Below are positions 23,568 to 52,616 of a stretch of DNA of 64,000 nt, in pieces (positions within the stretch are counted from its first letter, which is position 1; every line of letters starts with the position of its first letter). The stretch is from Stachybotrys elegans. Its lineage: Eukaryota; Ascomycota; Sordariomycetes; Hypocreales; Stachybotryaceae. The DNA lies in the NCBI GenBank assembly GCA_020746835.1, contig JAGPNK010000014.1, positions 1 to 64,000 on the forward strand. Reading direction: 5' to 3'. A program made the translations under genes and the position numbers. Under the pieces are notes generated by a model. The model ran no database searches. It worked only from the letters and a program-made list of their open reading frames with translations, and was not told the origin of the DNA.

Positions 23568-23780
23568 GCAAAGTTTGATTGTTGGGGACAAACTTACTTG
23601 GGTCCCAGCGACTGGCGGACGCTAGGTGGGCGCGCTTATTAGAAAAACGCAGAGGGGGCCTGCTGGCAAGTCTTGGATTGTTCAAATCAGTCAGTCCAGT
23701 CGATCCGGGGGACGCTGTCGCATCTTAGAAATTTCCAATACACGACGACTCCAAGAGTCATCATTGAAGAGCCCAAATCA

Positions 23781-25434: not shown

Positions 25435-25566
25435 TCACCCCACATTATCTTAGTCAACACGTCGATGCACACAGTGACTCAAAATTTAAAAAAAAAAAAA
25501 AAAAAAATTGAAAACCCACAGCAAATTAGATATGTTCTCAATTAATTTAACACTTGCATCATAGAC
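25435..25566. repeat. Poly-A tract before piggyBac relic
   Basis: A run of about 19 A residues at 25489-25507 lies between the Zn2Cys6 gene and the degenerate transposase. It may mark an old insertion boundary. No target duplication was found. Confidence 0.35.
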
Positions 25567-29205: not shown

Positions 29206-29317
29206 TATCCCTTTGAGTGTCATAAGGCGCATTCGACGTATTAGACCCACATGCCCCTCAATTTAGGTCGGTACACGAAGTAACTTTCAACCCTTCCCCA
29301 CCAAAATAACATACGTA

Positions 29318-31273
29318 ATGGATATCAACGATACCGCCGCAGAAGACACAATAATAGTCGGGGGCGTCAGTGAGGTTGATAACGAGCTTTTCATACGGCT
29401 TGACCACTATCAACAAGAGCAGCAAGGCGATATCACAGGGCGGCCGAATTTTGAGCCCGTTGCAGACTGCGGCAGCACCTTCTATCCCTTGCAGCCTGAC
29501 CAACGCAGTCCCCTTCTATCAGCTCTGCCGGCGAGCCCAGTCGACCTTTTCCAGCAATTTATCCCTGTATCCCTTGTTGAAGATTGGGTTCGCTATACAA
29601 ATGAGGCTCCCGAGCCTATACGAGGTCCCGGACCCGGGTCTCGTGGCAACAGCAGCTATCAACAACAGCCCTCGCGGCGAGGGCAGGCTTGGAATCCAAC
29701 CTCGGTCCCTGAGATCTATCTATGGCTTGCCATACAGATTTACATAGGTTTACACAGGGAAACCCGTCTGGAAGACTATTGGAAGGTCTCAGGGACCAAG
29801 GGCCACCTTCCTAGTCACCCTATCGTCAAATACATGACTTTTAACCAGTTCCAGCTGCTGTCACGGCGCCTACGAATTTCACCCTTTTCCGGCAACCAAG
29901 GACCCTTCCGGCCCTGTGATGTATGGTCTGACCACATACAAGCCGTTTCCTTACAGCTCTGGGCTCCGGGCACAGATATCGCTATAGATGAGTGTATAGT
30001 CGGCTTTGAAGGCCGTGCCTACGAAAAAACAACTGTCCCCAGCAAGCCAACGCCCACAGGCTTCAAAGTCTGGGTTGTGGCGCAACAGGGCTATTTTTTG
30101 CAGTGGATTTGGCACACACCAAAGGCCCTGCCTGCTGGCATCGTGAAGTCAGGGGGGGCCTTACAACAGCCGGGCTCGTTACAGCAGGGCTCGCAGCAAG
30201 GGGAAAAGCGTAAAGCTGCCGGCGACACAAAGGTGGCCTTGAACCCTACACAAGCAGTGGTGGTTTCCCTTGTATCTAGGCTGCCGGATGCAATTTATCA
30301 TGTCTTCCTTGACAACCTCTTCTCGTCGCCGCACCTTTTCAGGGCTCTGAGGCAACAAGGGATAGCTGCTACAGGCACTGCCCGGATCAACTGTGGTATC
30401 TATGCCCCCTTTGTTGTGGCCAAGCGGGAAGACCGTGCCGGGAAATGCTGGGCTTTTAACACAGTCAAGGCTGTGCCTACACCGGAAGGTTATGTAAGTC
30501 AGGGGATAGGAGCTATTACCATTGAATAGTAGGGAATTCGTATAGCTAACCTTTGCTTCTTCCCTTCCAGGTCAACCAAATAGCTTGGAAGGATAATGCC
30601 CTTGTGCTGCTGCTAACTACGGTCTTTACGGGTGACGAATTCATCCGCCGTATTCGGCGGCGGCCCTCAACAGCAACAGCACAGTCAAGACCTATCCGCC
30701 GCGAATTCGGGCGTGACCTAGTCAAGGAACTCCCTATGCCACAGGCTGCTGCAGCCTATAACAGCAATATGGGTGCCGTAGATATAGGGGACCAACTACG
30801 GGCTACAGAAGGTCTTGACCACCGTAACCGTAGGGGGGGGTTGGCGGGCAATAGCTTGGACCTTCCTGCTTGAAATAGCCCTTGTCAACAGCTATCTATT
30901 GCAGCAGAAGGCCCCGGGGCCCTCGCCGTGGGCCCCGTACGGGGACCAAAGGGGGTGGCGGCAGCGCCTTGTTGAGGACCTCATGTTCCTGTACGGCAAG
31001 ACAGGGGGCTCAAGGCAGCGTTTCCGAGCTGGGGACACTACAGTCCCTCTATCACAGCATAATCATGTCAATAGGGGCAAAAGGAGCCGTTGTTTAGGCT
31101 GTCAGGGGCTTCGGGCAGGTGAGATACGGTCAAAGAGCCGGCGGCAGCCCCTCGGGCAGGTCAGTGGGAATAGGGGCAAGGCTGTATCTACATTAAAAGG
31201 CTGTGACGTATGTGATGTAGCTATATGTACCCGGCAGGAATGCTGGGACTTGTATCATAGCCTGCTTTGCTAG
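29318..31273 (+). pseudogene. piggyBac-like (DDE_Tnp_1_7) transposase, copy 2, one-base frameshift
   Basis: ATG at 29318; intron 30494-30570 (GTAAGT..CTAAC..CCAG), phase 0. The three catalytic Asp motifs are visible: 'DIAIDECIVGFEGR', 'YHVFLDNLFSS' and 'NMGAVDIGDQLRA'. At 30833-30840 a run of eight G shifts the frame: the zero frame ends soon after 'DHRNRRGG', while the +1 frame continues 'GGWRAIAWTFLLEIALVNSY' to a Cys-rich tail ('RCLGCQGL', 'GCDVCDVAICTRQEC') and stops at 31273. Seven G would restore the frame, so the break may be a very recent mutation or an assembly error. The terminal Cys cluster matches the zinc-binding tail of piggyBac transposases. The reference cleavage/rejoining activity is known for the family, not shown here. 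Confidence 0.85.
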
Positions 31274-31279
31274 GAAAAT

Positions 31280-34200
31280 CAGCGCTGACCTCAATTCAAG
31301 TATCAAGTCAAGTATATCAAGTAAGTCAAGTAAGTTGACCGCCCAGTATATTTCAAGTAAGTAAGTATGTGATACCCGAAACTTGATATACTTGAAATAC
31401 TATATTTTATGGGTTCCCCTGTGCGACGCCCCTAGGAGTGCCGAGACCATTCAGAGTTTGTCGGCCCAAGGTGTAGGGTAATGAATTGGTGTTGCCTTCC
31501 CCAGCTGGTTGCACCAATAATGAATAATGCAGGGATGCGGCAGGGGTGGCGCGGATTTATTGTTTGTTCGCACGCGTGGTCGAGACGCGTCGCACCTGAC
31601 TCAGAACCCAAGTGGTCCCTTTGTGAGTAGCATCTGCAATCCGCAATCCGCCAATAATCCCCTATGGCAGCACAACAGCAGTCGCTAGAAACGCTCTTGG
31701 AGATTAGCAGTCAGCGTAGATCGCTGAAACAGCAGCTTGACGCTGCATCCATCAAGGCTGAATCTGGGAGAACGACTCTTGCTGACCTCCCAACGGTCCA
31801 GATCGGCTGCAAGAGGTATGTACCAGAGGAGTACATAGCCAACAAGAATCGCAAAGGCCGGCGGAGCTGGATTCAAGCCCATGGATTCTTCCTCACGGAA
31901 GTCAGCCCTGATTTGTGGACGTTGCAGACCTACTGGGTTTGCTCGAAATGCGACGAACGCGGGAAGAGCTCGTTTTTCGTCGCGACAAACACCACGTCAC
32001 CAATTGAGCATCTCCGAAGGCATGTGGCATCCGTACGGGCCCGACATTTCTTATTTTTCAGCGTCTGACTGTATAGGTCCCATATGATTACCGAGGCGGA
32101 CGGCAATGCGGACGAAGATTCGTCTCGCGCTGACATTCACCCCCCTTCGAAACGGCGCTGCCTAGAGCTTCCTACTGCGAGATCCAATGTTAACAAAGCG
32201 AAGGAGCTGACGGTCGGCTGGATCGTCACTGCCAAATCTTCCTTTTACGGCGCCGTCGAATCCGTACTTGCGACGAATGCTCGACTTACACGATGCGTCA
32301 TTGGCAAAAGAGGTGCCGTGGAACCGGCAGTCGGTGCGTGATACCATGCGGAAATTATTCGAGGTAAAGAAGGGAGCAATATCGAGTCAATTAGAGAAGG
32401 CAGTCACAAGGATTAGCTTTAGCTTTGACATGTGGACTTCGCCAAACCGGTACGCTTTCCTTGGCCTCCACGCTCACTATCTCGACGCCTCCTATCAAGT
32501 GCAATCGCGACTTCTTGCCCTGCGCCGTGTGTGGGGATCTCATTCCGGAGATAACCAAGCTACGACAATATATGACATTTTCGGCGAGTATGGGATACGA
32601 GATCGGATTGGCGCGGGTGTCAGCGACAATGTCACGTCTAATGACACATGCTTGGCGAGCCTCTATCGTCAACTTTCTCCTGCGATGGCCGAGGAGGATA
32701 TTCGAAACCATCGAACACGGTGCTTTGGGCATATTGTCAACCTTGCAGCTCGAGCGTTCCTCTGGGGGGAAGATCCTGACTCGTTTGAGCGAGAAGCCTT
32801 CACCGAGGCGGCTTTCCAAGTTGAGGAGCGTGAGCTTCGACTTTGGCGGAAACGGGGAGCAGTGGGCAAGCTGCATAATATCGTCCGGTTCGTCAGGGCT
32901 TCTCCGCAACGGCGAGAGTTGATGAAATCTCTGGCATGCAACCAGCGTGACGAAGACGGCTATCAACTCTTTGAGGAGGAGCGAGCTGCTATCGACCTCG
33001 AGCTGATGCAAAACAACGAAACCAGATGGAATTCGACTTTTCTGATGATCCAGCGTGCTATTCGCAAACGAGAGCACATTGACCATTTCATCACATATCT
33101 CGAAACGAAGGCAGCAGAGCCCCGACAACGTGTGCCTGTCCAAGATCAGCTTTCACCACAGGACTGGCTTCTGTTGGCGGAGATACAGAGCCTACTTAAA
33201 CCACTCTACGAGATCACCATGAGGTGCCAGGGTTGGGCCAAAGAAGGCCGTTACGGCGCGTTGTGGGAAGTGATGATCGGAATGGAATATTTGCTCAACT
33301 TCTTCGAGGAGCAAAAGCTGATATTCTCGCCACCTGGTGATACTGCTGATGAGCTACGGAATGCCAGAGCCTCGGCAACCACGAGTACGACTTTCTAGTT
33401 CATATTCGGTCGTCTTATGCCTATTTTGCTAATAGTATCTTAGGATGTAGTACTCCGCGAGTTGACCAGGGTCGCGGACGCGAGAAACACTTGCCACAGC
33501 ACATTCGAGACGAATATACTGGTGCATTCTTGCAAACTGAGAATTTCGATGATGACCACCGACGATGCATACAAATCTCTATCAATAACTGTTGGTCAAA
33601 GCTTGACGAGTATTACAGTCTGCTTGGTCAATCGCCACTGTATCCGGCTGCCGTTATTCTTCACCCGCGCTGGAACGTGTCTTGGCTTGAGGCGAACTGG
33701 ACTAGCCACGAGCAACTAGTGTGGCTACGGGACGCCAAGAACAGTGTCCGGGAATTCTTTGAACAACAGTATCCACGTAAGGAGCAGTCCGAGACAGCGA
33801 GAACCGTGATAGGAAAAGCAATGCGGCAAGACGAGGCTAGTCAATTCGACCAGTGGATGCAGAACTACGACCGGTACGTGATGGAGGAAGAAGATGAGCT
33901 TGGAGTTTATATGAGGCAAGGGCCAGTCCGGCGAGAGAACTTGAACCCCATTCTGTGGTGGAAGGATCACCAAGAAGAATATCCACGTCTGAGCAAGTTT
34001 GCCCTCGACATCCTGGCAATTCCTGCTATGTCTGTCGATCCTGAGCGGACATTTAGTGTCACGAAGTTGACAGTAAGCTCGCAAAGGCACAGCTTAAGCC
34101 CTGAGATAATAGAGGAAATACAGTGCCTACGGAATTGGCTAGGCCATCAAGCGATCACTGTGGGCGAGGTCGTCAGCTTTGGTGGGGACCTGATGGGTTG

Positions 34201-34367
34201 GGATGGAGGGGAGGCGTGATAGTACCAATAGCTTTATCCCGACCTCAGATATCAAGTATATCAAGTATATCAATTCAATTCAAGTTAATCAAGTTCACGG
34301 ACGATTTTATTTCAAGTAATCAAGTTACACCCCCGAACTTGACTTACTTGAATTGAAGTCAGCGCTG
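31280..34367 (+). mobile_element. Complete hAT transposon with 8-bp target duplication
   Basis: The left end is CAGCGCTGACCTCAATTC at 31280. The right end is the inverted copy ending at 34367, with one difference in the first 20 or so bases. Both sides carry the identical 8-bp duplication AGGAAAAT (31272-31279 and 34368-34375), the hallmark target length of hAT elements. Just inside both ends are many CAAGTA/TCAAGT words in both orientations (31300-31410 and 34240-34355), typical subterminal transposase-binding repeats. Length 3,088 bp. It landed in the stop codon of the piggyBac transposase without changing that ORF, because the duplication restores TAG. Identical target duplication and near-identical ends indicate a young insertion. 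Confidence 0.95.
31664..34219 (+). pseudogene. hAT transposase with BED finger and dimerisation domain, frameshifted
   Basis: Proposed exons are 31664-32019, 32077-33384 and 33444-34219. The first intron works best with a GC donor (GCATGT) because only then does the finger 'WVCSKC...HLRRSH' continue in frame into 'MITEADGN'. The BED-type finger is followed by 'NKAKELTVGWIV', 'FSFDMWTSPNRYAFLGLHAH' (catalytic region), 'GAGVSDNVTSNDTCL', 'RCFGHIVNLAARAF' and the C-terminal hAT dimerisation domain ('WWKDHQEEYPRLSKFALDIL', 'AIPAMSVDPERTFS'). At about 32262 two bases are missing between 'AVES' and 'LRRMLDLHD', so the finger and the catalytic part are out of frame. The copy is therefore probably unable to make a full enzyme, although its ends look intact. 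Confidence 0.85.
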
Positions 34368-35490: not shown

Positions 35491-37510
35491 TAAAAATAAA
35501 AATAAAAATAAAAATAAAATAAACTCTTTCGCTCGCCGACTGGGTGATTGCCGCTGTTGACCTTGAGTGGATGGTTATTCAGTGATTGGGAAGTCGGGGT
35601 GGTGTTTGTGCGGAAACAAACGAGGTGGCATTTGGCGTGTTCACTTGCTTGCCCCGGCCGCCCCCTGGCACACAAAGTTGCAAGCACATAGACGGTTTTT
35701 CTCGGAAGCGGTAAGCAGAAATGGCCTTGGATTTTTTTTTCTTTGCTCCCATTCTCGTGTTAGAAGTTGTGCCCGCAGGGGTGGCAGGAAAAGGAAACAA
35801 TTTGAGCCTAGAAGGGAGGATGATGACTGGATCATGGCCTTGGAGGGGTGTTGATGGCTGCTGGAACGCCAAGCACTGGTCGGAAGAAGCTCGGTTCTTT
35901 ACTCCGTCTGATGAGGTAAGCTGGGAGGCTGCCTCATTTTGCGCATCATCTTTGCTCGTTTCTCGTATCCCGGGGATGCATCGGACAATATCCAGCTCAA
36001 TCAATCATGCCCAAAGTTCGCGCTCGCTCAGCATTTCTCCCGTCTTTACGCTAGGCCGGGCACTTTGGTGGTTTTGCCTCGGGGGACGGCCCGATCCGGT
36101 CGCCCTGAATCATGCTGGCTGGCCCCGCGAGATAGTGGGCATCAGAGGCGGCCCCAGAGTAGCCCCAGAGCAGCGCTCTGGCTCCTCAGACCTCTGAAGC
36201 ACCACAGGCCGTTGCATACTGATTGTCTACGGCCCATTTACGCCTTTAACGTCCGGCTAGATCCCCCGAAGTCGAGAGTCATTGGTATCCACCATGTTGG
36301 GTGACTACGATGATCCTCCTCCTCGATGACACAAGTTTGTAGGGATCGATGCGACACCACCCTTCATACTTACCACTCGATCTCATCTGAAGTCTCCCGA
36401 TATCGAACTCTACGATAAAACATGCCGTCAAGCCACGAACGCTCCCATACTCCTGTCTCTTCTCCTGCCTTGACTCGATTCTCTAGCCCCTCCGCTCTAA
36501 TCACGTCCAGAGACACGATACGACGGGACACTGCAACGCAACGTTGCCTTCATCGAGCCCCGAAGAACACAAGAGGGGCTGAGAAGCTGGCTGTTAAAGA
36601 CAAAACAGGGGCCTCCCTCTGACGGCCTCGAGCGAGTACGCCCTTTATCTGCAACGAAACTGCCGGACGGACGAATGCGATCGGAACGGACATGACGAGC
36701 AACGATAACGAGCGATGACCACGGTCAATAATATAATGCAAAGGCACATCGACCACTGGTTCAACGCCTAACGAAAAGGGCAAGTCATGGGCAGCGATGG
36801 CGACATGGGGTGTGGACAGTTCGTTGGGATAGGTACGCTTGGTGGGTGATTCTCAATGCCAGAGGAGGCCTGTAGTTTGGAGATAGGACTAAGGTTGCGA
36901 CTCGCAACTGTGCGACAGACTCTAGAGTGGCCGTCTTCGCGTCTGTTCCCAGGCGTGTGCACATGTGACAGTTCCCATCTCTTGTCCTTCTGAACTGTAG
37001 TATCCCTTCCGCTGGCGGTAAGCTTGGCCAATGTGATCCAATGTCGCGCCGATCCAATCGCAGAGCGGCCGTAGTTTATGTTCGCATTTGACTCGTATGA
37101 GGAGTGGACTACTTGCCACCACAGGTCGAGATCGATTGGGAGCAGCAGATTGGTGAGCACCATCTGCGCGACCACGGGTCTTCGCAAGGACAGGGCTGTA
37201 GCGCGACTTGAGCGCAGTGCGATAAGCGAGAGAGGTTATTGTAACCTCATGCTTGATCTCAGGCCTGTCATTGTCCCTTTTCATCTCTGACCCTCTGCAG
37301 TATTCATTACTAGTCAATTCCCAGTCCCTCGCCTCTTTATTGCGTGGCCTCCGTCGGGCTTCATTCCAGGCTGACTGCGAATGCCGAGTGCGGCCGGGGC
37401 TGAGCAGCAGCGCCTGTTGGTTCATTTGGCCATAAATACCCTCCATTACCCATGGACAGTGCCAATTCCCCGTCATTTACAGCGTCTCCCCCAACATTGC
37501 AATATTCGCA
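35181..37510. other. Intergenic with hexamer array; no supported gene
   Basis: Holds the TAAAAA array (listed separately). Several frames of 60-160 codons occur on both strands (for example plus 35721-36197 and minus 36922-37476), overlapping each other and lacking motifs. I call none of them. The last few hundred bases before 37511 should contain the gasdermin gene promoter. Confidence 0.4.
35347..35521. repeat. (TAAAAA)n hexanucleotide microsatellite
   Basis: About 29 head-to-tail copies of TAAAAA over 175 bp, with three 5-bp (TAAAA) interruptions. A plain microsatellite; the apparent 118-codon Phe/Leu/Tyr frame on the minus strand is only its translation. Confidence 0.97.
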
Positions 37511-38353
37511 ATGGCCTCTTTCAGCTCCCAACCTTCCTTCCATCTATGTCCCGACTTCAACATCCCGCCGCCGCCCGACGGCCATCTCGAGCTGGGCTCG
37601 GTGCTGCGCGGCCTCGACTTCAATAGCGTCTATTCCCCGCTCGACGCCGGTGATGCCGTCGAGATCCCCGATGCGCAACTGAAGCCGATTTCTGAGAAGA
37701 CGGGCTTCAGCCGCACCCTAAAGGAGTTGCGCGGCGTCGAGGGCAGCATCTGGGCCAAGATCTTCGGCAGCGACGGCCTGGGCGCCATGTTCTCGTTCCT
37801 GCGCAAGCGCGAGAACGACGAGACCCTCACGGTCAAGAAGCTCCTCGTGCAGTACTTCATCCCCACGCCCGGGTACATGAAGAAGGCGCTCGAGATCGAC
37901 AACGTCGCGCTGCACATCAACGCCACAAAGCGCAAGAAGCCCGTCTACCTCGTCACCGGGCTGATGTGGACAGAGGGTGCCAAGCTGTCCAAGGTGCAGT
38001 CTTCGCGGAGCAAGGCCAGCGGGCAGGCTGCGGCGACGGACCCGCACTCGGGAACCACGGGCGGCGCGAGTGGAGCGTACGAGGGCGAGGAGAGCTTCTC
38101 GTCGAGCTTTGACGGGGCGACGCCGTTCATCCTCGGCATCCGGGTGCGCAAGATCTGGTGGGGCAGGGACGGCGTGAGACGTGAGGAGGAGGATATTGTT
38201 GGGGCGACACTTGGCGATTCCAAGGAGATGAACAAGGGTGTTCTGGATGGGCTGAGGTACGCTGACGATGAAGTCGTTAACGCGGCCGGACAGAACATCG
38301 TCGACGAGAGCCAATTGGGGAAAGTAGACCCTGTCACTTGGATCTTGCCTTGA
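37511..38353 (+). CDS. Fungal gasdermin-like protein
   Basis: Intronless, 280 aa, ATG at 37511. An N-terminal region rich in Pro/Asp is followed by 'GFSRTLKELRGVEGSIWAKI', a helical block and 'RKKPVYLVTGLMWTEGAKLS' at about 139-160, which is the beta-strand core typical of fungal gasdermins of the RCD-1/HET-Q1 type. A low-complexity Ser/Gly loop (about 165-195) and 'DGATPFILGIRVRKIWW' follow. The end is a charged segment of about 60 residues that could serve as the inhibitory tail. No signal peptide, as expected for a cytosolic pore former that acts at the plasma membrane after cleavage. It is convergent with the subtilisin-like gene, with 81 bp between stop codons. That is the gene pair expected from het-Q1/het-Q2. 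Family call is by pattern plus context. Confidence 0.7.
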   Translation: MASFSSQPSFHLCPDFNIPPPPDGHLELGSVLRGLDFNSVYSPLDAGDAVEIPDAQLKPISEKTGFSRTLKELRGVEGSIWAKIFGSDGLGAMFSFLRKRENDETLTVKKLLVQYFIPTPGYMKKALEIDNVALHINATKRKKPVYLVTGLMWTEGAKLSKVQSSRSKASGQAAATDPHSGTTGGASGAYEGEESFSSSFDGATPFILGIRVRKIWWGRDGVRREEEDIVGATLGDSKEMNKGVLDGLRYADDEVVNAAGQNIVDESQLGKVDPVTWILP

Positions 38354-38434
38354 AGTATAGCTGCTTCATGTTAGTTGAATGAGGTCTAGCTCGTCTTATC
38401 TACAATGCAGTCATGTGATTGTCTATATAATGTG

Positions 38435-41400
38435 CTAACCAACTTCCAAGTTGATCGTGTCCCAGACCCATCTACTCCGAGACGCGTCCATCTCCCAGCC
38501 ACTCTCCCAGTGATGCCACGGCGCCATATAATACAGCCGATCCCTCAGACCCCCCTTTGGCGTTGACATTAGCCTCAGCATCTTTTCCATTCCTTCAGGC
38601 CTTTTGAGCTTTTTCTTCGCCCGAGAATTAATGGCGTCTACGCGAGACGCGAGGTCAAGGACCGTGGCGGCGATGCCCGCGGCGATGGGTGTTGCAAACG
38701 ACGTCCCGGACTTGACTACGCTCTTGAACCTCGAGCGTGCCCTCCCGTTCTTCACGAAATTCTCCCTTTCCATGAGTTCCAGGCCCATCCCGAGCGTCAT
38801 AAAGTTGAAGCCGCTCTGTATTTCAGGGTTAATTCCGCCATCTTCACCGTTTCCGTCCGAGGCATGAACGCAAATGACCCAACGATCATCGTTCGCCGGG
38901 AACGCCCGGGGATCGTTTTTGCCACTGTTAGAGGCGGCTGCAAATATCAGCCGGGGCGAGGCGTCTCGGATTACGGTTTCGATCTCGTCGACGATCTTAT
39001 GGTACTTATATCGGGCTGACTGCTCCTCGGCTTCGTCTCCGTCGTCTCGAGCTGCTGGTTGTCTGAGACCGAAGGACATGGAGATTATGTCTACCTTCCA
39101 AGTGTTTGCTGCATGCTCAATGGCCTGTCACGTTGCAAGCGTTAGCATAGCAACTCCTCCTCCAGATCCAATCCTGGGCTGTCCTACCTTGGCTATGTTC
39201 TCAGCTTCGTAAAACCTCAAAGCGTTCTGGTTGAACACTTTCGCGACATAGATATCCGCCTCCGGAGCAGCTTTATGAAGGAGGTAGGCGCAGTTCGTCC
39301 CGTGTAGCTCATTATCTTCGTCTTTCGCGTCAGCGCCAACCCAGCTCTGGCACCACTCCTCCTTCATGCGTCCCTGCTCCTTGGCCTCCATGATTCCGGC
39401 ATGGTTGAAGTCGATTCCGGTGTCAATGACTGCGATGCGAATCCGCCGTGGTGAGTCGCCCCCTGACACTGTGTTGCGATGAGTGACAAAGCCTGAATAT
39501 GACTTGTGGAATGTTTCGAGACGTGTCCAGAACTTGTTCACGCTTTGGGGTGTATAAAGTGTTAGCGATAGAAATACGGAGATGCCCTTCGGGGGGGGCT
39601 TACGTTGAGGATGTAGAGGCTTGTTTTGCATCGAAAAGTTCAACGTTGGGTTGACTCGGCTCAACACATCGGATCGAAAGCTGCCTTGGAAGAGTCTTCT
39701 CCACGATGGTCGTGCATGAGGAGGTTTGGGTACAAGTGGAAATAGCAACGACAGAGGATTGCTGCACTGTTTGGCATGCAACATGCAAGGGCTCCGGTGC
39801 TGCATCCTCCTGGGTGAGAACGTTAGTGCTAGGGGTGACCAGTTTCTTCAGTGTCAGATTGTCATCAATCTTGATGAGAATAGTGTCAAACACCAATTTC
39901 CATGCAACCTCCAGCTTCTGGCTTGACTGGCTCTCCCTCAAGCGGTTCTGATACTCTATGTGAAAGTCCAAGCAGCCGAGGGCAGCCTGTAGCAACGGCA
40001 ACGTCTCTCGATCCACGTCTGGTCCGCAAGCCAAGCATCGGCTGTACGAGTCGACCGCCCTACGGAGTTTGTTCCATGCATCCCAAGAAGTCTGGTCAGA
40101 GCCCTTGCCGATTTTGAATTTGCTCAGACGGTCCCCACGTGCGATTTGCAACAGAGCCTTGGCCAGCAGCGCGAACTGGGGCAGGGGTTTTAGGTCCTCT
40201 TCATCCTCGCGGCTGCTGGAGGGGTATAAACTAGAAAGTGAGAGGTGTTTTCGGAGGCTTGAGCCGCTTTTCTTCCTGGGGACCGAGACAAATAGCCTTT
40301 GTGTCTCCACGGGTTCTAAGAAGTGGATGTGCTTTGGATCCCAAGTCTCGAAAACGTGATCGGAATTCATTGAAAGCATCAACCCGACAACGAGCTTGAT
40401 GGCCAGAGCCTTGCGTTCGTGGATTTCAAGGATGCTGCCCGTGCCACCAGTGTTGTACAGCAAGTCCAGGGTCTGTTCCTTTGCGAAGCGGCCCTGCTCG
40501 ATTAAGGTCCACAGACTATGAATCGGGAGTCTATCGCGGTCCATCCACTGCGTTCTACGCCGCTCCGTAGGAATGTAGATTGGTATTTTTGCGTCCCGAG
40601 CCGTTTTGGAGTCTTCTGAGACGTAGAACTCGAAGTCCACGTCATTCATGCGGGAATCACTGAGCGCCTGGCAGAGCTCTCGCTTATTGTAGCTAGTGGA
40701 ATGTCCTGGTCTGTCCCTCGTAAGTATCTCAGGTAGTAGAAGGGTGATGCTGACGTACTGCAGAAAATACATTCTGGCAGGCTGCCATTGGTCGCGCAAG
40801 CACGTCGTAAAAAATAGGTCAACGGGCAGGCTCGCCGACTCGTCTGGTGTGTCGTAGTTTGCAACGTCGTCCCATCCCGGTAGCTGTAGCAGGGCCTTGT
40901 GCTCGACGTCGCGGCAGCAGCCGAAGTGCGATAACACGGCACAACATGCAGTTGCTGTCTGGCGGCGGAACTTGTGGAGCAGAGAAAATGACGAGAAAGA
41001 TTCGTCGAAGGCCAGGCTTTCAGTAGGTCGCGTAGCGATGGTGTTCAGAGAGCCTGCTGAGATCTGCAACATATCGACAAAGCTATTGAAGGAAAGGAGA
41101 AGTTTTGATAGATTTTCGGCATCTGCGAGCATTCTCTTCCGGGTATCTTTGGCGGGCCGCTTCTGGCTGGGGTCTGTGAAATTTACAAAGGCAGCTGCCG
41201 TCGCTTCGTCTTCGGCAATGTTGAAGAGGAACCGCGTGCGCGAAGTCCTGGGTGTTGGGATAAAATCGAGAGTGGTGGTAGAGGGCGATAGCAGCTGTAG
41301 ATGTTCGATGAGTCGCGTTAGCCGTGGGAACTTGGAAGTGTGGTCAGTGTCGTCCGGCTCGCGAGGGCTTAGAACAGGGTTGACCCGAGCTTCGAGAACG

Positions 41401-41855
41401 AAGCACAACCGTGTTAGCATAGACAATGCTTCGGCGGCTGATGGAGAGGATGAGTCTCCAGGTGATTCCGAGCGGTCGTCAATTGGAGACATCGGTTGAG
41501 AATCTAGGCTTGACTGTGAAGATGTATCGTCTTGGTCCGAGTCCTCATCTGGTTTCGACTCTGTTTCCGACTCTGAGCTGGTTTGAGACGCATCACCTTC
41601 TACCTCCGACTCTAGGTACAGCAGCAAGTCAAGTCGTAGGATGGTGAATGTCCTGCGAATCTGGACGTCAAGGTAGTTGATTGCATTGCGGAGCTCTTGC
41701 GTTCTCGTGCTGCCACCACTGAAGGCAACACCTCCAGGTCTGCTGAAGCGATGGCTGTCTTGGCGTAGCGCGTGTATCAGTTTCCACTCAGCGGTTGTCT
41801 CAATGCCCCCGCGAGAAGCCGCACCGCCCAGGGACACAGGATCGCGAAGGTCCAT
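38435..41855 (-). CDS. Subtilisin-like (S8) serine protease with long N-terminal effector/sensor region
   Basis: Start ATG at 41855 (the open frame to 41915 begins only with GTG). Exons (minus) are 41855-39604, 39542-39188 and 39124-38435; introns GTAAGC..AAAG and GTAGGA..ACAG are in phase; 1,098 aa. The first 750 residues are helical with an acidic Ser-rich patch and a later segment 'HERKALAIKLVVGLMLSM' with 'ETWDPKHIHFL' that resembles the DUF7580 domain of NLR-like fungal proteins. The C-terminal 330 residues are an S8 domain with all catalytic motifs: 'IAVIDTGIDF' (Asp about 790), 'HGTNCAYLL' (His about 830), 'AAASNSGKND' (oxyanion Asn about 936) and 'SGTSFATPIAAG' (Ser about 1012). There is no secretion signal, so it acts inside the cell. 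The likely substrate is the adjacent gasdermin. Confidence 0.85.
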
Positions 41856-42624
41856 TAGACGACTACCGCAAAGAGTAACTAGGATGCGGTGTGTCGTAGG
41901 CCCGTGGAGGGACACCTGGCATCCGCTCTGGGTGATTGATGGCTGCCGTCGATTGCGGCTCTGGAGACAAGGCTGCGATCAGGCTGTGGTCGAATTTCGG
42001 TGTGAAACCAGCTGAGCTAGGAAGAAAGGGGAGAGTTGGCTTGACCTCTAGAGCGCGCGACGGCGTCACCGTGTTGGGAGGCAGTCTCGACCAGATATTG
42101 GCCGGAGAGGGAACGGTCAACCCTGCGAGGTGTTTTTTCGGTTAAGCAGAAATGAATTGGGCCTCGACTGTCGTCGCCCAACCGCAGCGCTACAATCGGT
42201 GTCAGCTGAGGGGTCGGTCAAGAATTATTAGCAATCAAGTACCTTTTGAACTCCGTTACCCAGTTACGTACGGATCGTGAGGTTTTCTGGAAGCCCAGTC
42301 ACAGAATTGGAAGAAATGGACTAGATTCTAAATCTCTAAGCCTGACCACGCTAGTATAACGAGTGTTGGCGACATGTTTGAGTTGAAAGTTCCCGAGCTA
42401 CATGTGATTGATCAGCTCATGGTCAGCTTTGCCAGTTGACTATTGGTCCAGAGGACATCCGGTGCCCGAAAATGGCTCTCTCCGCGACCCGATGGATCAG
42501 CATCAGCATGCCTTCGCGCAATCCATCGACAAGCAGCTAAACAGCACTCGACCGACGTCTACGGACAAGCAGCTCAATAGTTAGGAGTCTTGAATTACTC
42601 TTAGGCTTTTGCGGGCGGCTGAGT
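41856..42624. promoter_or_regulatory. Shared divergent promoter region, protease and C2H2-HET gene
   Basis: 769 bp separates the two start codons of the divergent genes. No gene is supported inside. A shared control region would couple expression of the protease and the HET gene; this is inference from the layout only. Confidence 0.4.
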
Positions 42625-45600
42625 ATGGCGAGCCTCGATGCGACCCGGGAGCCTGAGGGCGTTGACCTTAAAGTGGAGGTACCAGGGGGCGACATCTCAA
42701 CTCTGGCTTCTACCTGCGCGTCCAACTTCTACAATACTCTCCAGCTACTGGGTGAAGAGAAAGACGAAAAATATGAAGGCATTTTTCGGAAGTTTGAGAA
42801 GAGATTTCTCGACTGGGCCGCTTATCTCGGCGTCTTTGCTGAGGGCAATGGAAGTCTTGACTATCGCCTTAAGAGTCACCCTCAATACCGCGACCTTGTT
42901 CTCCTGGTGCTGGACATGCTCAACGTGAGCCTTGTTCAGAGTGAGCCTCAGATGTCACGTTTTCAAGTGGATACCAGCTTATTGAATATAGCAACGACTG
43001 AGCCCAGTGAGTCAAGCGCTGATGAATCCTCGGATGAGGAGGTGGATAGACGGAAGACCGAGACCGAGAGCATCCGGAAGTCAATCAACGAGCTTGACCG
43101 CCTTGCTATTCACATCAGACAGTCTTCCATCTCCTCTCTGGACGTGCGGGTCAAGGCATTCGGGGCAAGGAAGCTTTCAGATATATCTTTTTATGAGGCC
43201 AGGGCGACATTCGCCATGAATAGCCTGTATCCGGAAGCCTCTGACAGCCTTCGTCGGCACTTGAGCAAATCCATGGCGCAGAGGTACACGAGGCTATTAT
43301 ACTGGCAGTCTCATGACAAGAAACTCCGCGCAGACCGTCGCCGCGATAAACGACGAGATGACCCGATTCTACCACCACGAGAACCGTCACCGTTACCTCC
43401 CAAGGTATCATCCATACCATGGCAGCCAGTGAGAGACGAGGATCCGGCACCGCCAAAGCCCGGAGAAAGCAGGGTGAACGCCGGCACTTCCTTTCTATCT
43501 GGGACTCGGGCATCGGAACTGGGATCCCAATTCACCATCCCATCTGCCGAGGCCAAGATGCCGTCCCGCAAGCGAGCTGGTGCATCCTCCGTCCTAGAGA
43601 CCAAAGCAAAGTTTCCCAGCCCGCCCAAGTTCGAGGACGGGGAAGAACAAAAGCCTTGTCCTCTCTGCCGAAAGATCTTTCTCAAGGATGACTTCACAGA
43701 TACTAAGTGCTGGAGGCAAGTTGGTCTGGAGAACCCCATGTTCAGTTACTAACCTGGCACAGATCCCACGTGAATGATGACTTAATACCCTTCGTGTGCG
43801 TTTCGAGCACATGCATGGGATCGCCAACGTTTACTGGCAGGACGGCCTGGAAAGAGCATATTGGGCAGTATCATGATGGCATGTGGCTTCAAAGACCGAA
43901 AGTTGATTCCCAAAAATCATCAGGTACTGTCCGTGCCACGGATACCTGCCCCCTCTGTTGCCTTCCGATTGCCGAAATTACGAAGCTCAAAGCCAGCATT
44001 CCCCAAGCCTCGGAGTTAGAGACATCACCGTCGAAGGCAAGGACTCCTTCTGGTAACAAAAGCGCCTCAAAGACAGTACGATTTGATGTTTCAGAGCCAG
44101 AAACACTGATCACAGCCGACACAGAGCCTTCAAATCGGGCAGAGAGCGCCATGATGCTGAATCATATCGCCGATCATCTACAGTTTCTAGCCTTACTGAC
44201 ACCCCGATTATCAACCGAGAAACTTGGGGAAGGGGGTACACACGCCTTTTCTAGTGACCAAGAGTTGAGCAGCTACCAAGGCTCCGGAAAAAGGAGCACT
44301 TTAGACGATGATTTCGCATCCGCAGAAGGAGACAAGTCTCATGATGCGGACATGGATGCACATTTGGATGAAGCACCTGAACCGGAAGCAAGCATATATC
44401 AGGCAGGGCAGGAAGGTGAGGAAATCAAGTTAGGGGAAGAAACAGATTGGAGTATGGTTGCAACTATGAATCCGCCCAACGAGGGAGATGACAAAATCGA
44501 GCACATGCGGAAGGTCCGTGCAGAATGCGATAACCTTTTGGATGCAGCTTTGGAGAGCTCCGTAGAGGGCCGCCACTACAGGCGCCTTTTCCTCGAAACG
44601 GCAGCGGCCTCTTGCGAATCAATCACCACTGAGATGTTGGTGGCTGTGGAGAGTGAAGTCGGAGTGGGCGCCTTGATTGATCTTTTCGCGCGGGAAATAC
44701 CTCGAGACGCCTTGCACGGGTTCTTCGAGAAGGCGTTCATCTCAGTGGACCCAGAGAAAGATTCCATGCTGGTCAATTACTGCACCGAGCAGGTTTGGGA
44801 CTTTCGCCCCTATCAAGACCCCCACGCATCCGCGGAGGAGAGGTCTGCCTCGAGGCGAGTGCTGTTCGGCTTGCTGGCCATGTTGGATCAGCCGTTAGAT
44901 ATCCTGAGGGCTATCAAGGACGAAATCTCGGACTTGAGCATCCCCTTGACAACGACGACCTTGACACAGCTGTTTCCCACATGGAGTGGAACTCAGGTAT
45001 CATCTTTTATGCGGTTTCAGAGAGACTTGCATGATAGGATTCTTGAGAACCCCAATTTGCAGAGCATGGTGGCGAATGCTGGTGATCAGATACCGTTGCG
45101 ATGGGAGGAGGAAGCCAGGATAACAGAGGGTGGGTGCTTGAAATATGCCCTTGATTTCTGACACTAATTCAAGTCCGTATACGTAGCTCGGACTGATGAG
45201 CCGTACCGGTACCAGCTGATTCAGAATGACAACGCGGTGAGGATGTTGACCCTGTCGGCCGGGCTTCCCGACGATCCCCTGAGTGGCTTCCTCACCGAGT
45301 TCAACATGGACGACGCAGCCCACGAGGCCTATGAGCCCCTGTCTTACGTCTGGGACGCGCCCAACTTCGACCGCACCTTCATTTGCGACGGAAAGCGATT
45401 GAGCATCACGACTAATCTTGACCACGGGCTGCGCCGTATTCGCATGCCTGACAAGGACCGGCGCGTGTGGGTTGACCAAATCTGCATCAACCTCCAAGAT
45501 ACGGTGGAAAGAAGAAGCCAGGTTCAGTTTATAAACGCCATATACAAGCACGCAAGCAGTGTTCTCGTATGGCTTGGCCCGGATACGGGGCAGGAAGCCG

Positions 45601-47201
45601 ACGCGGCCTTCTCCTTTGTCAGATCGCTGTCCGATACGCTCAACGATGCCGGCCGATACGCCCAGTTCAAGGCCGACCACACGAGCGATATGCTGACGCG
45701 GCGACGTGAAGAGGACTGGGCGTCGGTGAAGGCACTGACGCAGCTGCCATGGTTCGAGAGTGTGTGGATCATGGAGGAAATTGGAACCAGGGCGTCAGCG
45801 ACCCTCCTCTGGGGGGATGCATCAATTGATTGGTACACGCTGTATAGTGTGTGCGACAAGCTAACAGAGTTCCACTATCTACGCCGCCGTTTCAACATTG
45901 AGACGTCCAAGGTGAAGTTTGTCCTTCAGCGCTTCATTCCGCCCAATGTTGCCACCCGGCACGCCAACCGGCTGAGCTTCATCTACGAGCTACACCGGGC
46001 ACGCCATGTCAAGGCGACTGACCCGCGAGACCGTGTCTTCGCCTTCTTGGGACATTACTGGGGCGAGGAGCTGCGAGGACTCAAGGCGAACTACGACACC
46101 GAAACTGCCACGCTCCCCAACGTGTACAGGGATGTAGCCGTTCGTACCATGGAGAGGGGTGGTGGCGACTCCGGACTCATCGCCCTCGCGGCAGTCCAGC
46201 ACCATGAGCTTGCATCCTCCCTTGCCGACTGGCGTGAGCGCCGGGACAAGGCAGGTGACCGCCATTACATGCCGTCGTGGGTTCCCGACTGGCGCACTTA
46301 CACGTCGTACATCCTCTCGGAGCCGACTTCACCCCACCGCGCCTGCGGCTCAGGCAGCTTCTCAAAGCCGTCCTTCGTTATCTATGGGACCCAGCTCCAC
46401 ATCAAGGGTGTCGCCATCGATGTTATCACAGATGCCTCGGAGCCGCTGAAACCCAAGGCCTTCTACGACCCCGAACCGGGCGAGCAGACCCTCATAGAAC
46501 ACCTGTGGCGCACAGTGTGTGGGTACGGAGTAGATAGCAGCGGCGATGGCGGCGACCATCTGTTCTCTCTGCGGCCGCTGTATCGGCAAGATGATGAAGC
46601 CAAGGACGCAGCGCAATCCGGCGATGCGCGCTGTCCAGCCGTCCTGGCGTACATGCAGACACTCAGCAATGGCGGAGCGGCAACGGCGCTGAGGCGATTT
46701 GATGGGGAGCATGCTTCCGCCAGCAACTCCAGCGGTTCTGCCCCAGACTCGTCAGGACAGCGCGAGCAAGAATCACGCGAGAATTTCTACCGGTCCATTT
46801 CCGACAGTCAATGGCTTGCCCAGGGTGCCGCCTACCTAACACGCACCATGGCAGCAGCGGGCGACGCCAAGGCCGTGAGTCCTGAATTGCAGTCGCTAGC
46901 GACATCGAAAGGCGTTTTGGGGGGCGATGCCGAGTGGTCGCGCTCGGCCAATGGCGCGTCGAGCGGTCGGGTTTTCGCGCGGACTGCAAAGGGTTATTTC
47001 GTACTTGGGCCCAAAGTGCTGGCCAAAGGCGACCGCATCTGCGTGCTCTGGGGGGGGAAAATGTGCTTCTGCCTGCGGCCCCTGGACCAAGGCAGATTCC
47101 TGCTCGTGGGAGAGTGCTACGTGCACGGGCTGATGAATGGGGAGGCTGCCAGCCAGGTGGAGAAGAATGAGCTGCAGGAAGAGGAATTTGTTCTAGTCTG
47201 A
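42625..47201 (+). CDS. C2H2-HET fusion protein (heterokaryon incompatibility domain)
   Basis: Proposed exons 42625-43715, 43763-45129 and 45187-47201 give 1,490 aa. The first intron has a GC donor (GCAAGT..ACAG); splicing completes the zinc motif 'CPLC...CWRSHVND'. A second Cys pair 'CPLCCLPI' lies near 425. The N-terminal 150 residues are the helical block common to fungal C2H2 proteins of this class. The second intron (GTGGGT..GTAG, 57 bp) is in phase and joins to 'YRYQLIQNDNAVRMLTLSAG'. The HET domain follows at about 866-1020 ('YEPLSYVWD', 'RVWVDQICINLQDTVERRSQ', 'VLVWLGPDTG'). The end 'GECYVHGLMNGEA' is the usual HET-protein C-terminus. HET domains trigger incompatibility cell death. Alternative: two genes, the second starting at ATG 45243 with only 80 bp of upstream space. 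Confidence 0.75.
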
Positions 47202-47818
47202 TCTGATAAGAGTGCCTTGCCTACGGTGGGCGATAGGGCGGACTGTTGCAAAACCCCCAGTCGATTCCATTTGGGTTTAGGCGGCCAACTTCTTAGTCAT
47301 CCGAGTACTTCGGGTTCGTCAAGAAAATGTACCGCGGACTAGCTGCGGACTCGCACGGTAGCCTTTCGCTAGTTCAACTTGCCAGTCACCACCACATCAT
47401 GTGAATGGTAAACAAGTTTTACGACGTAGATGCTTACTATCCGTGATTCAGGACATAATCTGAGTCGATGTTCTTAAAAATCTCACTGACCAAACCTTTA
47501 TTTTCACTCCAGGATTGAAACTCACATATTTTAGACATCACGTAAGTCTGATTGCCTGTTCCTCTTCTCATCGCGATGAAAGCAAGCAGTCTGGTGAGCC
47601 CACGATGGTCAACGCGGTAATCCCGCTACTAGTCAGCAGCGGACTAGCGCAGCAACGTCCTTCTCAAATGAGCTTAGCGACTTCATTCACCATGGAGAAG
47701 GGTGATGTTGCTGTTCTTGTTAAATTAAAGCCTCAGTGGAAATCGTTCCTCCCCCTTTTCTCCTTTCCGACTTTCACCTCCTCTCTTCTACCGAAATGGG
47801 CCTTCCCAAGATCCCCCC

Positions 47819-49147
47819 GAGCATGTCTACTGCATCCAAGCAGGAAAGAAGCACTATGAACTCTTCACCACCACATATGTTGACGCGAACTATTGCGGCC
47901 ATTGCGGCTTGGCCAACCCCTTTCGACCCCAAAATCGTGCCAGATCCAAGACTCCAGCACTCCCGGGTCCGTATGACGAGGTGGTAGAGGTTGAAGACTC
48001 TCCGCCACCACGACCAGTCAGTCCAGCAAGTCGGTTGCTGCGCGACGGACCAAAGTCTATATCTTCCATTGCTGTTGGACGCACAGATCAACAGCTCCCT
48101 ATCGAGACGTTTGCGCCCGGCGCAACGAATACGCGGGCGCGCATTCCTCCTCCTGCACTATCAGGCAGTTCCCAATTCGTGACCGTGGCATCCGCGGCCA
48201 GCCGTGCCATTCAGAATGCAAAGACGAACACCAGGAAGCCCACGAGGCAGCGGGCGGGATACCAATGGGTACATATAAGTCTCCTGCTTGTGAGCCTGGA
48301 GACCAAGTACTTCAACGGGCTTGCAGTTGAGGTTCCGGAGACGGTGCTGCCTCTGAAAGATACAGTGATCAAGTTTTCCTCAGTGGATTTACTAACTTGG
48401 CCCTCCTTTACCGCGATATTGTTCGATCATCTCCGTCCGCTCCCGCCAACAATCGATCCTACTAACAGAGACCTTTGGAGCCTTTCTTATGCGTCGAGTT
48501 TCTCTGGCAAAAAGATCGTCACCGTTCCCAACATCAACAAGTACACGACTCCGTCGAGTATGCTCGCGTCGGGGCACTTCGGTAACAATCAGGCAGGACA
48601 GTTGAAAGTGCTAGTCATCCTTACATCCACGGATGTAGTCGATAAACAGGAACCAGTCACACCGTTGAGGCCAGATGAATACTCGACGCCAGTCAAGGAA
48701 GAAAGGAAACGGAAGGTCAAGCAAGAAGACACAAGCCCTGCCCTAAGTCGCGAAAAGCGCATCAAGAAGGAGGATCATGTCAAGAAAGAGGGTAGCGCTG
48801 GTAACACGGGTCAGATTCAGCAGGAGGTACACATCACGAAGCCGGAGGAGCCTGTCCCGACTACCTCCTGCCAGGGCCTGACAGACGACGAGCTCGAAAG
48901 CATTGCTGACGAGATAGTTGTGCGTGAAGATGTGGTAGATCTTTGTGAAATAGGGGATCCGCTTCGTGATCAAATGTTTGACAGCATCCTTGGCCCTAGG
49001 GGGAGTGAAGATATGGTAGATGACGGAGACGAAGCAATCGAAAAAGATGGTGAGCAAGCTGTGGTCCCAGAGTTCGTAAGAGACCAAATAATCTCCTTTC
49101 CAAGGCAATTTCTGACACTAATAGGTAATCCTGGAGTGCCTTCCTAA
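47819..49147 (+). CDS. Unknown transposon gene with a Cys pair and acidic/basic tail (5' end unresolved)
   Basis: The frame is open from before 47819 ('EHVYCIQAGKKHYELFTTTY', 'VDANYCGHCGLANPFRPQNR') to a stop at 49147. There is no ATG near the beginning, so an upstream exon with an acceptor around 47810 is likely. The beginning carries 'YCGHCG', a possible zinc ligand pair. The middle has 'AGYQWVHISLLLVSLETKYF' and 'TVLPLKDTVIKFSSVD'. The C-terminal third is Lys/Glu-rich ('KEERKRKVKQED', 'REKRIKKEDHVKKEG'), followed by an acidic part. No known domain. It is convergent with the integrase gene and within the inverted ends of the same element, so a role in transposition (DNA-binding accessory) is inferred. 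Confidence 0.55.
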   Translation, partial: EHVYCIQAGKKHYELFTTTYVDANYCGHCGLANPFRPQNRARSKTPALPGPYDEVVEVEDSPPPRPVSPASRLLRDGPKSISSIAVGRTDQQLPIETFAPGATNTRARIPPPALSGSSQFVTVASAASRAIQNAKTNTRKPTRQRAGYQWVHISLLLVSLETKYFNGLAVEVPETVLPLKDTVIKFSSVDLLTWPSFTAILFDHLRPLPPTIDPTNRDLWSLSYASSFSGKKIVTVPNINKYTTPSSMLASGHFGNNQAGQLKVLVILTSTDVVDKQEPVTPLRPDEYSTPVKEERKRKVKQEDTSPALSREKRIKKEDHVKKEGSAGNTGQIQQEVHITKPEEPVPTTSCQGLTDDELESIADEIVVREDVVDLCEIGDPLRDQMFDSILGPRGSEDMVDDGDEAIEKDGEQAVVPEFVRDQIISFPRQFLTLIGNPGVPS

Positions 49148-49283
49148 AAGGATTGGAGATGATCAAAGTCAATTGTCTGACACCGATATCACCGGGGCGC
49201 TTCCTCCAGCACACTCTACACGCTTCAAAGGAACCAAGGTTCCTGCAACATTTGCTGTCCGATACAAGAAAAGTGCGAATTGA

Positions 49284-51011
49284 CTACTCGGGTCCCCCAT
49301 TTAAGACGTCGCTATCCTCCCCGTCATCACTGATGCCCTCTATATCGTTTCCCTCTTCGTCCTCATATCCCAATTCAACAAGTGGTTGCTCTGCTGGCTC
49401 CCCATCTCCAAGCTCATCTTGGCGGGCTTGATTTGCTCGCTCATATAATACTTGCTAGATTCAGTCAGCTTGGTTTGATCGCAAAGAGAACATATGGCTT
49501 ACATATTCGGCGACGCCACCCGTTGGCGCTTTACGATATGCAAGTACAGGCTGCAGGCCACTTTCGACATGCTGAATGATTCTATCTCGGAGGCCAATGT
49601 AGAAACGCTTGAAAGGTCGCAGCTTGTCTGACTCCTGATGAGTCCCAAGGACCGCGTTATTGTAACCCATCTCGACGAGAACATGGCGGCACCAATCTTT
49701 TGTCTCTGGTTCTAAACATGTGCTGATATCGATATCAGCCAATGGTCTCTGCATTTCGTCGAGAACGCAGCGATCAATGGGGATCCCCCAGTTGCATGCC
49801 TTATCTGGATCGGGATAGTGGTAGTTCATCCAAGGCTGGCCATGAACTACATGCGGACGGTTCTTCTGAAGGCGAATTCGATGGAGATTCCACGCCTCTA
49901 CGAAGTCGAAGAGCTCTTGTCGCAAAACATCTTCGAAGACGGCGTATATGGCAATCTGATCTTCTACCATATCACCGTCGAAGTCCCCGTCCCGGGCGAG
50001 TTCACCGAAGTAGTCCACCCACTGACGAGAGGAGACATGAAGCATGCTTTCCCACCACTTTTCAATCTTGACATTCTTTGTGCTCGGTGCTGCCTTGTAG
50101 GAATCCTTCAGGCGCTTCCCTTGTTGGAAGACGTGTCCATTCCACTCCACCCGCCCGTCTGCGGCTAAAGCAAAGTTCCAGTGGGCTGCTGCGATAAGCG
50201 GCGTTTCGCTGCCTCTGTCTGCCTGCAGATACCATGGCCGGAAGCCGTACGCGTCGCATGCCGTTAGGTACTGCTTTAGGACGCTCAAAGCTGTTGTAGC
50301 AGAGTGGCCAATATAGAACCAGATGATGTTGCGTGAGTAGGCGTCTATTGCGGCATATATCTCAAATCCATAGGCTTTTAGCTTGTCGTGACCGTCAATG
50401 CACCACTGATAGTTTGGCCCCGGCACAAGGAACTGCCCCTTTTTCCTCCGAAACATCCTTTTTCGAATCTCGACCTCGTTCGGGAACATGATTCTGTACA
50501 TAGCAAAGAGAGGATCTCTTGGTACCCAGAGTTGCTTTTGCTGACGAAGGTATGGCTGAAGAAGGCTTTTGCCATATCCAGAAATAGCATTGGATCGTCG
50601 TGTCATTTCGGTGATGACTTGCTCTGTCTTCTCTAGCAACGCAAGACGTTCTTCTTCACTATTGATCCTGCGGATCCAGCGGCGGTCTGGGTGAAGCCTG
50701 ATTCGCTTCAAGCCTTCTTTGGTGATCGGCCAGCCCTGCCTCTGTAGGACGCTCAACGTCTGCTTTTCACTTATCCCGACGCGAAATATCAGGTCGCGGA
50801 TAGCCTCTATTAGCTCTGGGCTTTCTTCGGTTCGGCTTTGTTGGCGTGGGATGTCCCAGCTCGCGATTCGGCGAGAGATTGTGCTGAGATTGACACTGAC
50901 ATGATGATGCTTCCGAAGCTTGTACTGAATCCTGCGTCGCGAAATACCGCTGAGGTAGAGATGGGTGATGTAGTCGCGGTGTTGATCAACTGAGTTGCGA
51001 GGACGTGCCAT
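49284..51011 (-). CDS. Integrase-core (rve-like) DDE transposase
   Basis: The start is taken at ATG 51011 ('MARPRNSVDQHRDYITHLYL'), although the frame is open to ATG 51176. Exons (minus) are 51011-49503 and 49454-49284; the intron (GTAAGC..CTGAC..CTAG, 48 bp) adds an acidic 56-residue tail ('GYEDEEGNDIEGISDDG'). 559 aa. An N-terminal helix-turn-helix-like part ('SGISRRRIQYKLRKHHHV') is followed by an integrase fold with the three acidic residues: 'QWCIDGHDKL' (D206), 'YLQADRGSET' (D265) and 'KIEKWWESM' (E321). The family is the integrase-core group found in fungi and some animals. It would cut and join the ends of the 47.2-52.4 kb element. Open reading frame fully intact. Confidence 0.85.
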
Positions 51012-51307
51012 TTCGGAACCGGGGAAGTCGCAAAAGGAGGTGGGCGACATTCTAGGTTTTGAAGAATGGGAAAAGGGGGCGATGCAGGATGGGTTACGCG
51101 CACTAGTCCGCAGCGGCATGGCAACTGGCCCGCAGCGGTGACTCTCTCGGAAGTGGCTTAGCCTCCCTTTACTCATTGGTAGAACCCGACGAAGCTAGGG
51201 GTAGACCAATCAATATTTACAGAAGCCTAGAACCCTTCCAACGGTCGTTCCACCTTCCCCTTTAAACCATCTCGTCCGTGGAAAAGCTTGTGGTCAGCAA
51301 CAGCATC

Positions 51308-52150
51308 ATGCTTACGGTCGATTCTGACGTCGTTGGCGAGACTTCTGGCGCGGATGGGGACTCTCTCGGCCGGAACGCTGAGGTGAAGAGACGAAGATTG
51401 ACCCAACCGAGCATCCGCAAACCCTCGGCCAAGATTACCGTACGTTTAGCAAGACCTCATATGAAGCCAAAGAAGCTAACATGCCCATCCGCGCAGAAGA
51501 AGAAACAGTCGAAGAAGGTCCCTCCCCGTGGCTCGGTCCGTCATTTCCCATGCCGGCAGTGTGTCGCTCGCGCGAGCAAGGCCCCTGGCCATGAATGCGC
51601 TTCCCAAGACAGTATCATTGAATGTCCCTAGCTTTAAACGTCGTACACTGACACATTGATTAGATACTGGTGCTGCGTGCTGGGATTGCGCAAAGAACGG
51701 CCACACGTGTCGACCGGTGAGACATATCTGCTCTCTGTTAGCTGACTGGGTACTTACTCCGTTGTATCTCTAGGTTCCTGTTGAAGCTCGTGCTGCTGTA
51801 CGTGCTTTTTGGGACTTGAATCGACAGCTCAGTGACGCGGATGAAGAGCCGGGTGAGGTCTGGCGCGCTGCCGCACAGCGGGCAGCTCAACAACTACGAG
51901 CTTGCGGCAGTGGTGCGGCTCCTCCTCCTACTCCACGGCCAGCACCTGCCTTGGCATCATTTGGCGAAGTGGTCGATGGAAGTTTTGAGGAGAGGAAACT
52001 TGTAGCGCTGGAGACCATCGCGAGGGCTGCTCGGCTCTGGATTGTGAGTACAGCCACGTCATTAGATCCAACTTCGAGTACTTACTCCTAATTTAGCAGC
52101 TCAATCAACCGGACGAGGAGGACGGGGATGAGGAGGAAGATTATGACTAG
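51308..52150 (+). CDS. Cys-rich short protein of the integrase transposon
   Basis: Start ATG 51308; exons 51308-51439, 51497-51623, 51664-51716, 51774-52043 and 52097-52150, 211 aa. All four introns (57, 40, 57 and 53 bp) have GT..AG and fit phase. The last acceptor may be 3 bp later. Basic beginning ('RRRLTQPSIRKP'), then 'HFPCRQCVARASKAPGHECA' and, after a splice, 'GAACWDCAKNGHTCRPV': a C-x2-C...C / C-x2-C...C arrangement like a small zinc cluster. A helical region ('RAFWDLNRQLSDADEE', 'FEERKLVALETIARAARLW') and an acidic tail follow. It is divergent from the integrase gene with 297 bp between starts. Similar Cys-plus-helix small proteins accompany fungal mobile elements. Function unknown; DNA binding is a guess. 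Confidence 0.6.
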
Positions 52151-52616
52151 TAGAATAAGAAAAATCGGGCTGTTTCAGTCTTGATCCGACAACCGCGTGC
52201 TACTGTTTCTTGCTTTGACAGAATTTGAAATGCACTCTGCTTGCTCGGTGCGGACTCGCGGCTATGACATGATCTTCCGTACGGCGCCCAAAAAGTAGGA
52301 AATTCAAGCTGAGGTACAAAGCGCAATGTACTCCGGGGCCGAGGGACTATGGCGCTAACCCAATTCGGCACCTTGGCAGCGATTTTGAGGGTTTTGCAAC
52401 AGTCACCCCTATAGCCTGCCATACTTGCCTGCCACGGGAGGAGACCCTGATTTGATGCGGGTAGCTCTGCTTTAGAACCCCACACAGCTTAGCTTGACAT
52501 ATTCGCCACCCCCCCCCCGCGGCTATATCAACCCCCAACTCCACCCAAGAAAACATCATGCAACCATCATCAAACTGCAAAATATCCCTCTGCAAACTTT
52601 ACACTTTCAGCTCGCC

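Follow-up and report, generated by a model that had tools for sequence, protein, structure and literature searches.

The first 64,000 nucleotides of contig C6 (JAGPNK010000014.1) in the 43.4-Mb genome of Stachybotrys elegans, referred to here as the window, carry a fungal gasdermin gene and a subtilisin-like (S8) protease gene, which converge tail to tail inside a Starship-like element. The gasdermin gene (37511-38353, forward strand) is a single exon with one open frame encoding 280 residues. The HET-Q2-like protease gene (38435-41855, reverse strand) is assembled from four exons (41855-40759, 40710-39604, 39542-39188, and 39124-38435) and encodes 1082 residues with a DUF7580 domain and an S8 domain. 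The two stop codons lie 81 bp apart (38354-38434), and the gene models confirm on this point a first-pass annotation made from the sequence alone. That annotation had proposed a candidate regulated-cell-death pair, which holds up here together with the gasdermin and its S8 partner; its claim of a distinct sensor region is not supported, and neither the Starship-like element nor the probable horizontal transfer had been noticed.

The 280-residue protein belongs to the fungal gasdermin family and has the gasdermin fold. A profile built from 40 gasdermin sequences matched the PDB structures of RCD-1-2 (7.1e-10) and the HET-Q1 pore (1.5e-5), and fold comparison with solved structures recovered the pore domain in the predicted structure. 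The closest solved structures were RCD-1-1 and RCD-1-2, while HET-Q1, matched by the profile, was not among the listed fold matches, and the bacterial structure 7n50 gave a weak one (E 8.5e-3). The assignment is carried by the profile and the structure model, because these matched and single-sequence searches did not. Both family and fold thus bear out the first-pass call; a structure prediction lacking the fold, named beforehand as evidence to the contrary, was looked for and did not occur. Based on the model and the alignment, the protein can be divided into a predicted pore domain (residues ~1-226), a variable, low-confidence linker (227-260), and a partly conserved C-terminal tail (~261-280).

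The protease model of 1082 residues matches the S. elegans record B0I35DRAFT_88127 at NCBI (P0107) letter for letter; a 1098-residue model was rejected, since it read through a 48-nt intron. The Pfam search, the homologue search, the identities given below, and the N-terminal structure were obtained with this longer model, which has 16 extra residues. In its numbering, Pfam placed DUF7580 at residues 293-668 (E 2e-55; 39852-40979, reverse strand) and Peptidase_S8 at residues 785-1026 (E 1.8e-18), most of the latter being encoded by exons 3 and 4 (38435-39542, reverse strand). At the motif positions, the 1082-residue protein has D775, H815, and S995, the catalytic triad of the S8 family, and N919, the oxyanion residue; the Asp-His-Ser triad announced earlier is complete. 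The N-terminus shows by eye no hydrophobic stretch, in agreement with the earlier statement that a secretion signal is missing. DUF7580 is the predicted sensor or regulatory region, and the kinase-like fold modelled for it, weakly supported, is suggestive only.

The first-pass idea that this region is unlike those of known partners finds no support. Both DUF7580 and S8 are present in 44 of the 53 listed homologues, the S. elegans record included (among the best 7993 candidates scored), and in four of the six pairs found in the genome; in addition, a 2025 review (PMC12881547) mentions proteases that control gasdermins and are fused to predicted kinase-like domains. Relative to the Fusarium oxysporum protease, residues 361-420 are the least conserved full 60-residue segment (65% identity, compared with 93-98% for segments of the S8 domain), and their variability would be compatible with a possible fast-changing sensor surface.

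Physical association of gasdermin and S8 genes is a recurrent feature of this genome. Seven gasdermin matches resolved into six loci, a lower bound, and 85 S8 matches into 67 loci; every one of the six gasdermin loci, the present pair included, has an S8 locus within 3 kb, for which a crude chance estimate is 2.6e-12. Four of the partners are DUF7580-S8 proteins, one is an ankyrin-S8 protein, and one is an S8 protein in which no DUF7580 was detected; the gasdermin paired with the ankyrin-S8 gene is flanked on the opposite side by another S8 gene, whose product looks secreted. Judged by eye, the arrangement is tail to tail in three pairs, head to head in two, and tandem in one. In an S8 tree, the six paired domains and five from other multidomain homologues formed one clade against 21 other S8 domains of this genome (100/99), three of the 21 being long-branched. 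This grouping bears indirectly on the second refuting condition named by the first-pass annotation, a protease domain without homology to HET-Q2-type S8 enzymes. DUF7580 and S8 matches also stand side by side at C21:17714-19550 and C9:66191-67883, where no gasdermin was found nearby, and these may be orphan sensor-proteases or diverged partners.

The association extends to other fungi. The names of the matches place the gasdermin family in many Sordariomycetes and in some other classes, and in eight of ten assemblies compared, the locus tags of gasdermin and protease differ by one, with a difference of two in F. piperis. In Mytilinidion, Pestalotiopsis, and Trichoderma arundinaceum, both genes lie on contigs of equal length, the order of tags being unusable.

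The gasdermins of S. elegans (Hypocreales) and Rhypophila (Sordariales) are 97% identical over 140 and 77 readable residues, and 85% identical over the whole alignment because the middle of the Rhypophila model reads, by eye, in another frame; this gene (V8F33_012603, P0010) may be broken in its mid part. The S. elegans protease is 91% identical to that of F. oxysporum (97% in the S8 domain) and 83% identical to that of Rhypophila, while the F. oxysporum and F. irregulare proteases share 69%. Trees were built from 35 and 20 rows for the gasdermin and 22 rows for the protease, picked among named, fairly complete matches. The gasdermin trees group S. elegans and Rhypophila with F. mangiferae, F. 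irregulare, and F. equiseti (100/99 and 99/98), and the protease tree groups them with F. oxysporum, F. irregulare, and F. equiseti (100/100), the same odd grouping appearing in both genes. In all three trees, the wider group around these two fungi otherwise consists of Fusarium, plus one metagenome protein in the 35-row tree, and three of the ten Fusarium gasdermins fall outside it. With the groups defined once a first tree had been inspected, approximately unbiased (AU) tests rejected a clade of the other seven Fusarium gasdermins that excludes S. elegans and Rhypophila (p-AU 0.0009), as well as a Hypocreales clade (p-AU 2e-67); therefore, the gasdermin family disagrees with the species phylogeny at more than one point. 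The pair probably reached S. elegans horizontally, from a Fusarium-like lineage. Contamination is unlikely, since the S. elegans copy is embedded in a contig of 1.04 Mb and the protease of Rhypophila is distinct from the other two.

The genomic seat of the pair is a Starship-like element whose left edge is at 6764 (forward strand) and which runs past the window to C6:67354, for a total of 60.6 kb. Its first gene at the left end, a DUF3435 captain-type gene (7681-10135, forward strand), starts 0.9 kb inside the edge and reads inwards; a splice model made in this analysis joins exons 7681-8090, 8140-8347, 8401-9064, and 9111-10135 into a 768-residue protein. Its two halves match Pfam PF11917 at 3.6e-33 and 2.7e-26, and a C-terminal stretch is C2H2-like by eye. 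A collinear copy of 6761-24359, the left 17.6 kb, is found at the end of contig C11 (C11:502846-520792), truncated by an array of telomere repeats that closes the contig. Its identity is 97.8% up to 11113 and 88.9% beyond; most differences in the latter part are C-to-T or G-to-A changes on the C11 side, a bias characteristic of repeat-induced point mutation.

A 20.2-kb version lies in reverse on contig C16, its two edges keeping their order and orientation around a mostly different interior. The left edge is near 95937 (88% identity over the first 338 bases, 93% over 6800-10176), parts of the left interior follow at about 80%, one block being flipped with respect to the window, and the right end (60039-67354, 95%) finishes at 75734. 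Beyond 6764 (three copies) and 67354 (two copies), the flanking sequences show no mutual alignment. As the edges are common to the copies and the flanks unalignable, most of a 60.6-kb element can be assigned to the window, and the pair lies inside it in a single-copy region (36400-42600). A captain gene in first position, a large cargo, and fixed edges, Starship features described in PMC12134995, PMC12153272, and PMC11623301, are thus all found here, with a variable cargo of tens of kilobases and copies sharing their edges; the captain-type protein is a putative recombinase.

These lines of evidence point to a pyroptosis-like two-gene cell-death module, horizontally acquired and carried as cargo of the 60.6-kb Starship-like element, a reading that we consider likely. 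The DUF7580-S8 protein would act as an intracellular sensor-protease, with cell fusion with non-self, a virus, or another element as candidate triggers. Once activated, its S8 domain would cut the gasdermin within the flexible stretch at ~227-260 and release a C-terminal tail of ~20-50 residues, after which the freed N-terminal part may form pores and lead to cell death. In S. elegans, the putatively mobile element would hold this module as cargo.

Several observations weigh against this interpretation. Searches of the gasdermin as a single sequence against Pfam and PDB gave no match, and its structure model has a mean pLDDT of 66. The two genes are not always close together: their locus tags are 86 apart in Neopestalotiopsis, and the listed gasdermin and protease of Ilyonectria lie on contigs differing in length. 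Branch order within the closest group is weak, both for the gasdermin (81/12 and 83/74) and for the protease (81/68 and 91/86), and the AU test covered the gasdermin only, with its post hoc groups. The trees were midpoint-rooted for drawing, so the direction of transfer can only be inferred. Starships are bordered by direct repeats of 2-12 bp and often have terminal inverted repeats; neither direct nor inverted terminal repeats were clear by eye at the ends of the element. Lastly, the nearest captain relatives outside S. elegans, among the matches listed, are 66% identical (Thelonectria), and no F. oxysporum or Rhypophila captain is named among the 54 listed, five of them nameless, from the best 7999 candidates scored.

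The lack of clear terminal repeats lends some weight to the view that these 60.6 kb do not form a single Starship, with the pair sitting in host DNA between two fragments or the copies arising by segmental duplication. The repeat-rich interior and the inverted C16 block agree with this view, but the retention of both edges in C16, in order and orientation, between unalignable flanks and around a mostly different interior, together with the collinear left 17.6 kb on C11 and the captain-type gene just inside the left edge, makes it unlikely.

A second alternative concerns the role of the protease. RCD-1 of Neurospora crassa is described in PMC12881547 as heteroallelic and without cleavage control, and the closest fold relatives of the S. 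elegans gasdermin are precisely RCD-1-1 and RCD-1-2; the protein could then kill independently of a protease when two divergent alleles meet, with its neighbour doing something else. This appears improbable in view of the recurrent S8 pairing within this genome and across species, the odd grouping shared by the two gene trees, the profile match to HET-Q1, and the conservation of the tail beyond the variable linker.

Vertical inheritance would make the pair merely conserved, its slow change accounting for the high identity to Rhypophila and Fusarium. The spread of the family over many Sordariomycetes and some other classes fits such a history, and the identities compared are those of the two genes themselves. 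However, the F. irregulare gasdermin differs by 23-28% from four other Fusarium gasdermins (P0005-P0007, P0011), compared with 3% between Stachybotrys and Rhypophila over the readable parts, and the post hoc seven-Fusarium clade was rejected as stated, which leaves this explanation very little room. That the two genes are chance neighbours without a functional link is hardly credible, given an adjacency that recurs at all six loci and in other species and the shared grouping of both trees.

The preferred interpretation, a transferred module in a Starship-like element, bears on a wider question, the incompletely understood tendency of fungal death-effector genes to lie next to those of their activators. 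According to a proposal in PMC9815663 (2022), clustered genes are more readily inherited as a whole pathway through transposition; the odd grouping shared by the two trees and a position between the edges of a captain-bearing element therefore make this proposal directly testable in strains. If correct, fungal immunity modules move between species much like bacterial defence systems. More speculatively, Starships might capture the pair, carry it from one fungal order to another, and profit from it as a mobile killing or immunity module. One doubtful but conceivable benefit would be the killing of fused cells in which the element is missing or a rival of it is present, and such modules could, equally tentatively, be to eukaryotes what mobile defence islands are to bacteria. 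The present captain as a between-species vehicle is not supported, its nearest outside relative being 66% identical. Because the outside relatives of the captain are distant and none of those listed is named F. oxysporum or Rhypophila, the histories of captain and cargo seem to differ, and the carrier between species need not be this captain; PMC11623301 reports that Starships exchange cargo.

The pair itself is of a known kind, noteworthy for its Starship-like seat and its passage between orders. As in HET-Q1/HET-Q2 of Podospora anserina, a gasdermin with a short tail after its pore domain has an S8 partner, and the HET-Q1 structure is matched by the gasdermin profile. In contrast, het-Q1 and het-Q2 occupy a single locus as idiomorphs according to PMC12881547, whereas here both genes stand side by side in one genome; the DUF7580 region of the S. 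elegans protease may be a further difference. Clave et al. 2022 is reportedly the primary paper on protease-clustered fungal gasdermins with Q2L proteases. With Q2L clusters the present locus shares two genes, a multidomain S8 protease, and a gasdermin within the 10 kb used for Q2L proteases, here at 81 bp; it departs from them in lying inside a Starship-like element and in its probable horizontal transfer. About 80% of fungal gasdermin genes cluster with proteases and about 63% with S8, as given in PMC10197012. Bacterial gasdermin genes likewise cluster with protease genes in defence loci (PMC12881547), but a distant fold match alone connects them with the S. elegans protein (7n50). No report of a gasdermin-protease pair as Starship cargo was found in the open-licence literature searched (2020 onward).

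Other genes and repeats accompany the pair. A HET-domain open reading frame (45168-47198; Pfam HET, 2.6e-25) has a copy 88-91% identical at C3:655.7-658.0 kb; it was left out as a third module member, its copy being on contig C3, where no gasdermin was found. Between the protease and the HET gene, open frames at 42625-45161 have zinc-finger-like stretches by eye and no Pfam match. A 5.2-kb repeat with an integrase-core gene (47220-52423) has copies of 97-98% on C29 and C37, and a repeat at 31638-34367, whose frame is transposase-like by eye, has a 99% copy on C22, its tested part (32211-33395) giving no Pfam match. Pfam also identified transposase genes within the element, of the DDE_Tnp_1_7 type at 25546-26160 and 29267-30526 and with a hAT dimerisation domain at 57216-58013. 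Finally, a gene at 11067-11939 has a chromodomain-like end by eye and a diverged counterpart in the C16 element.

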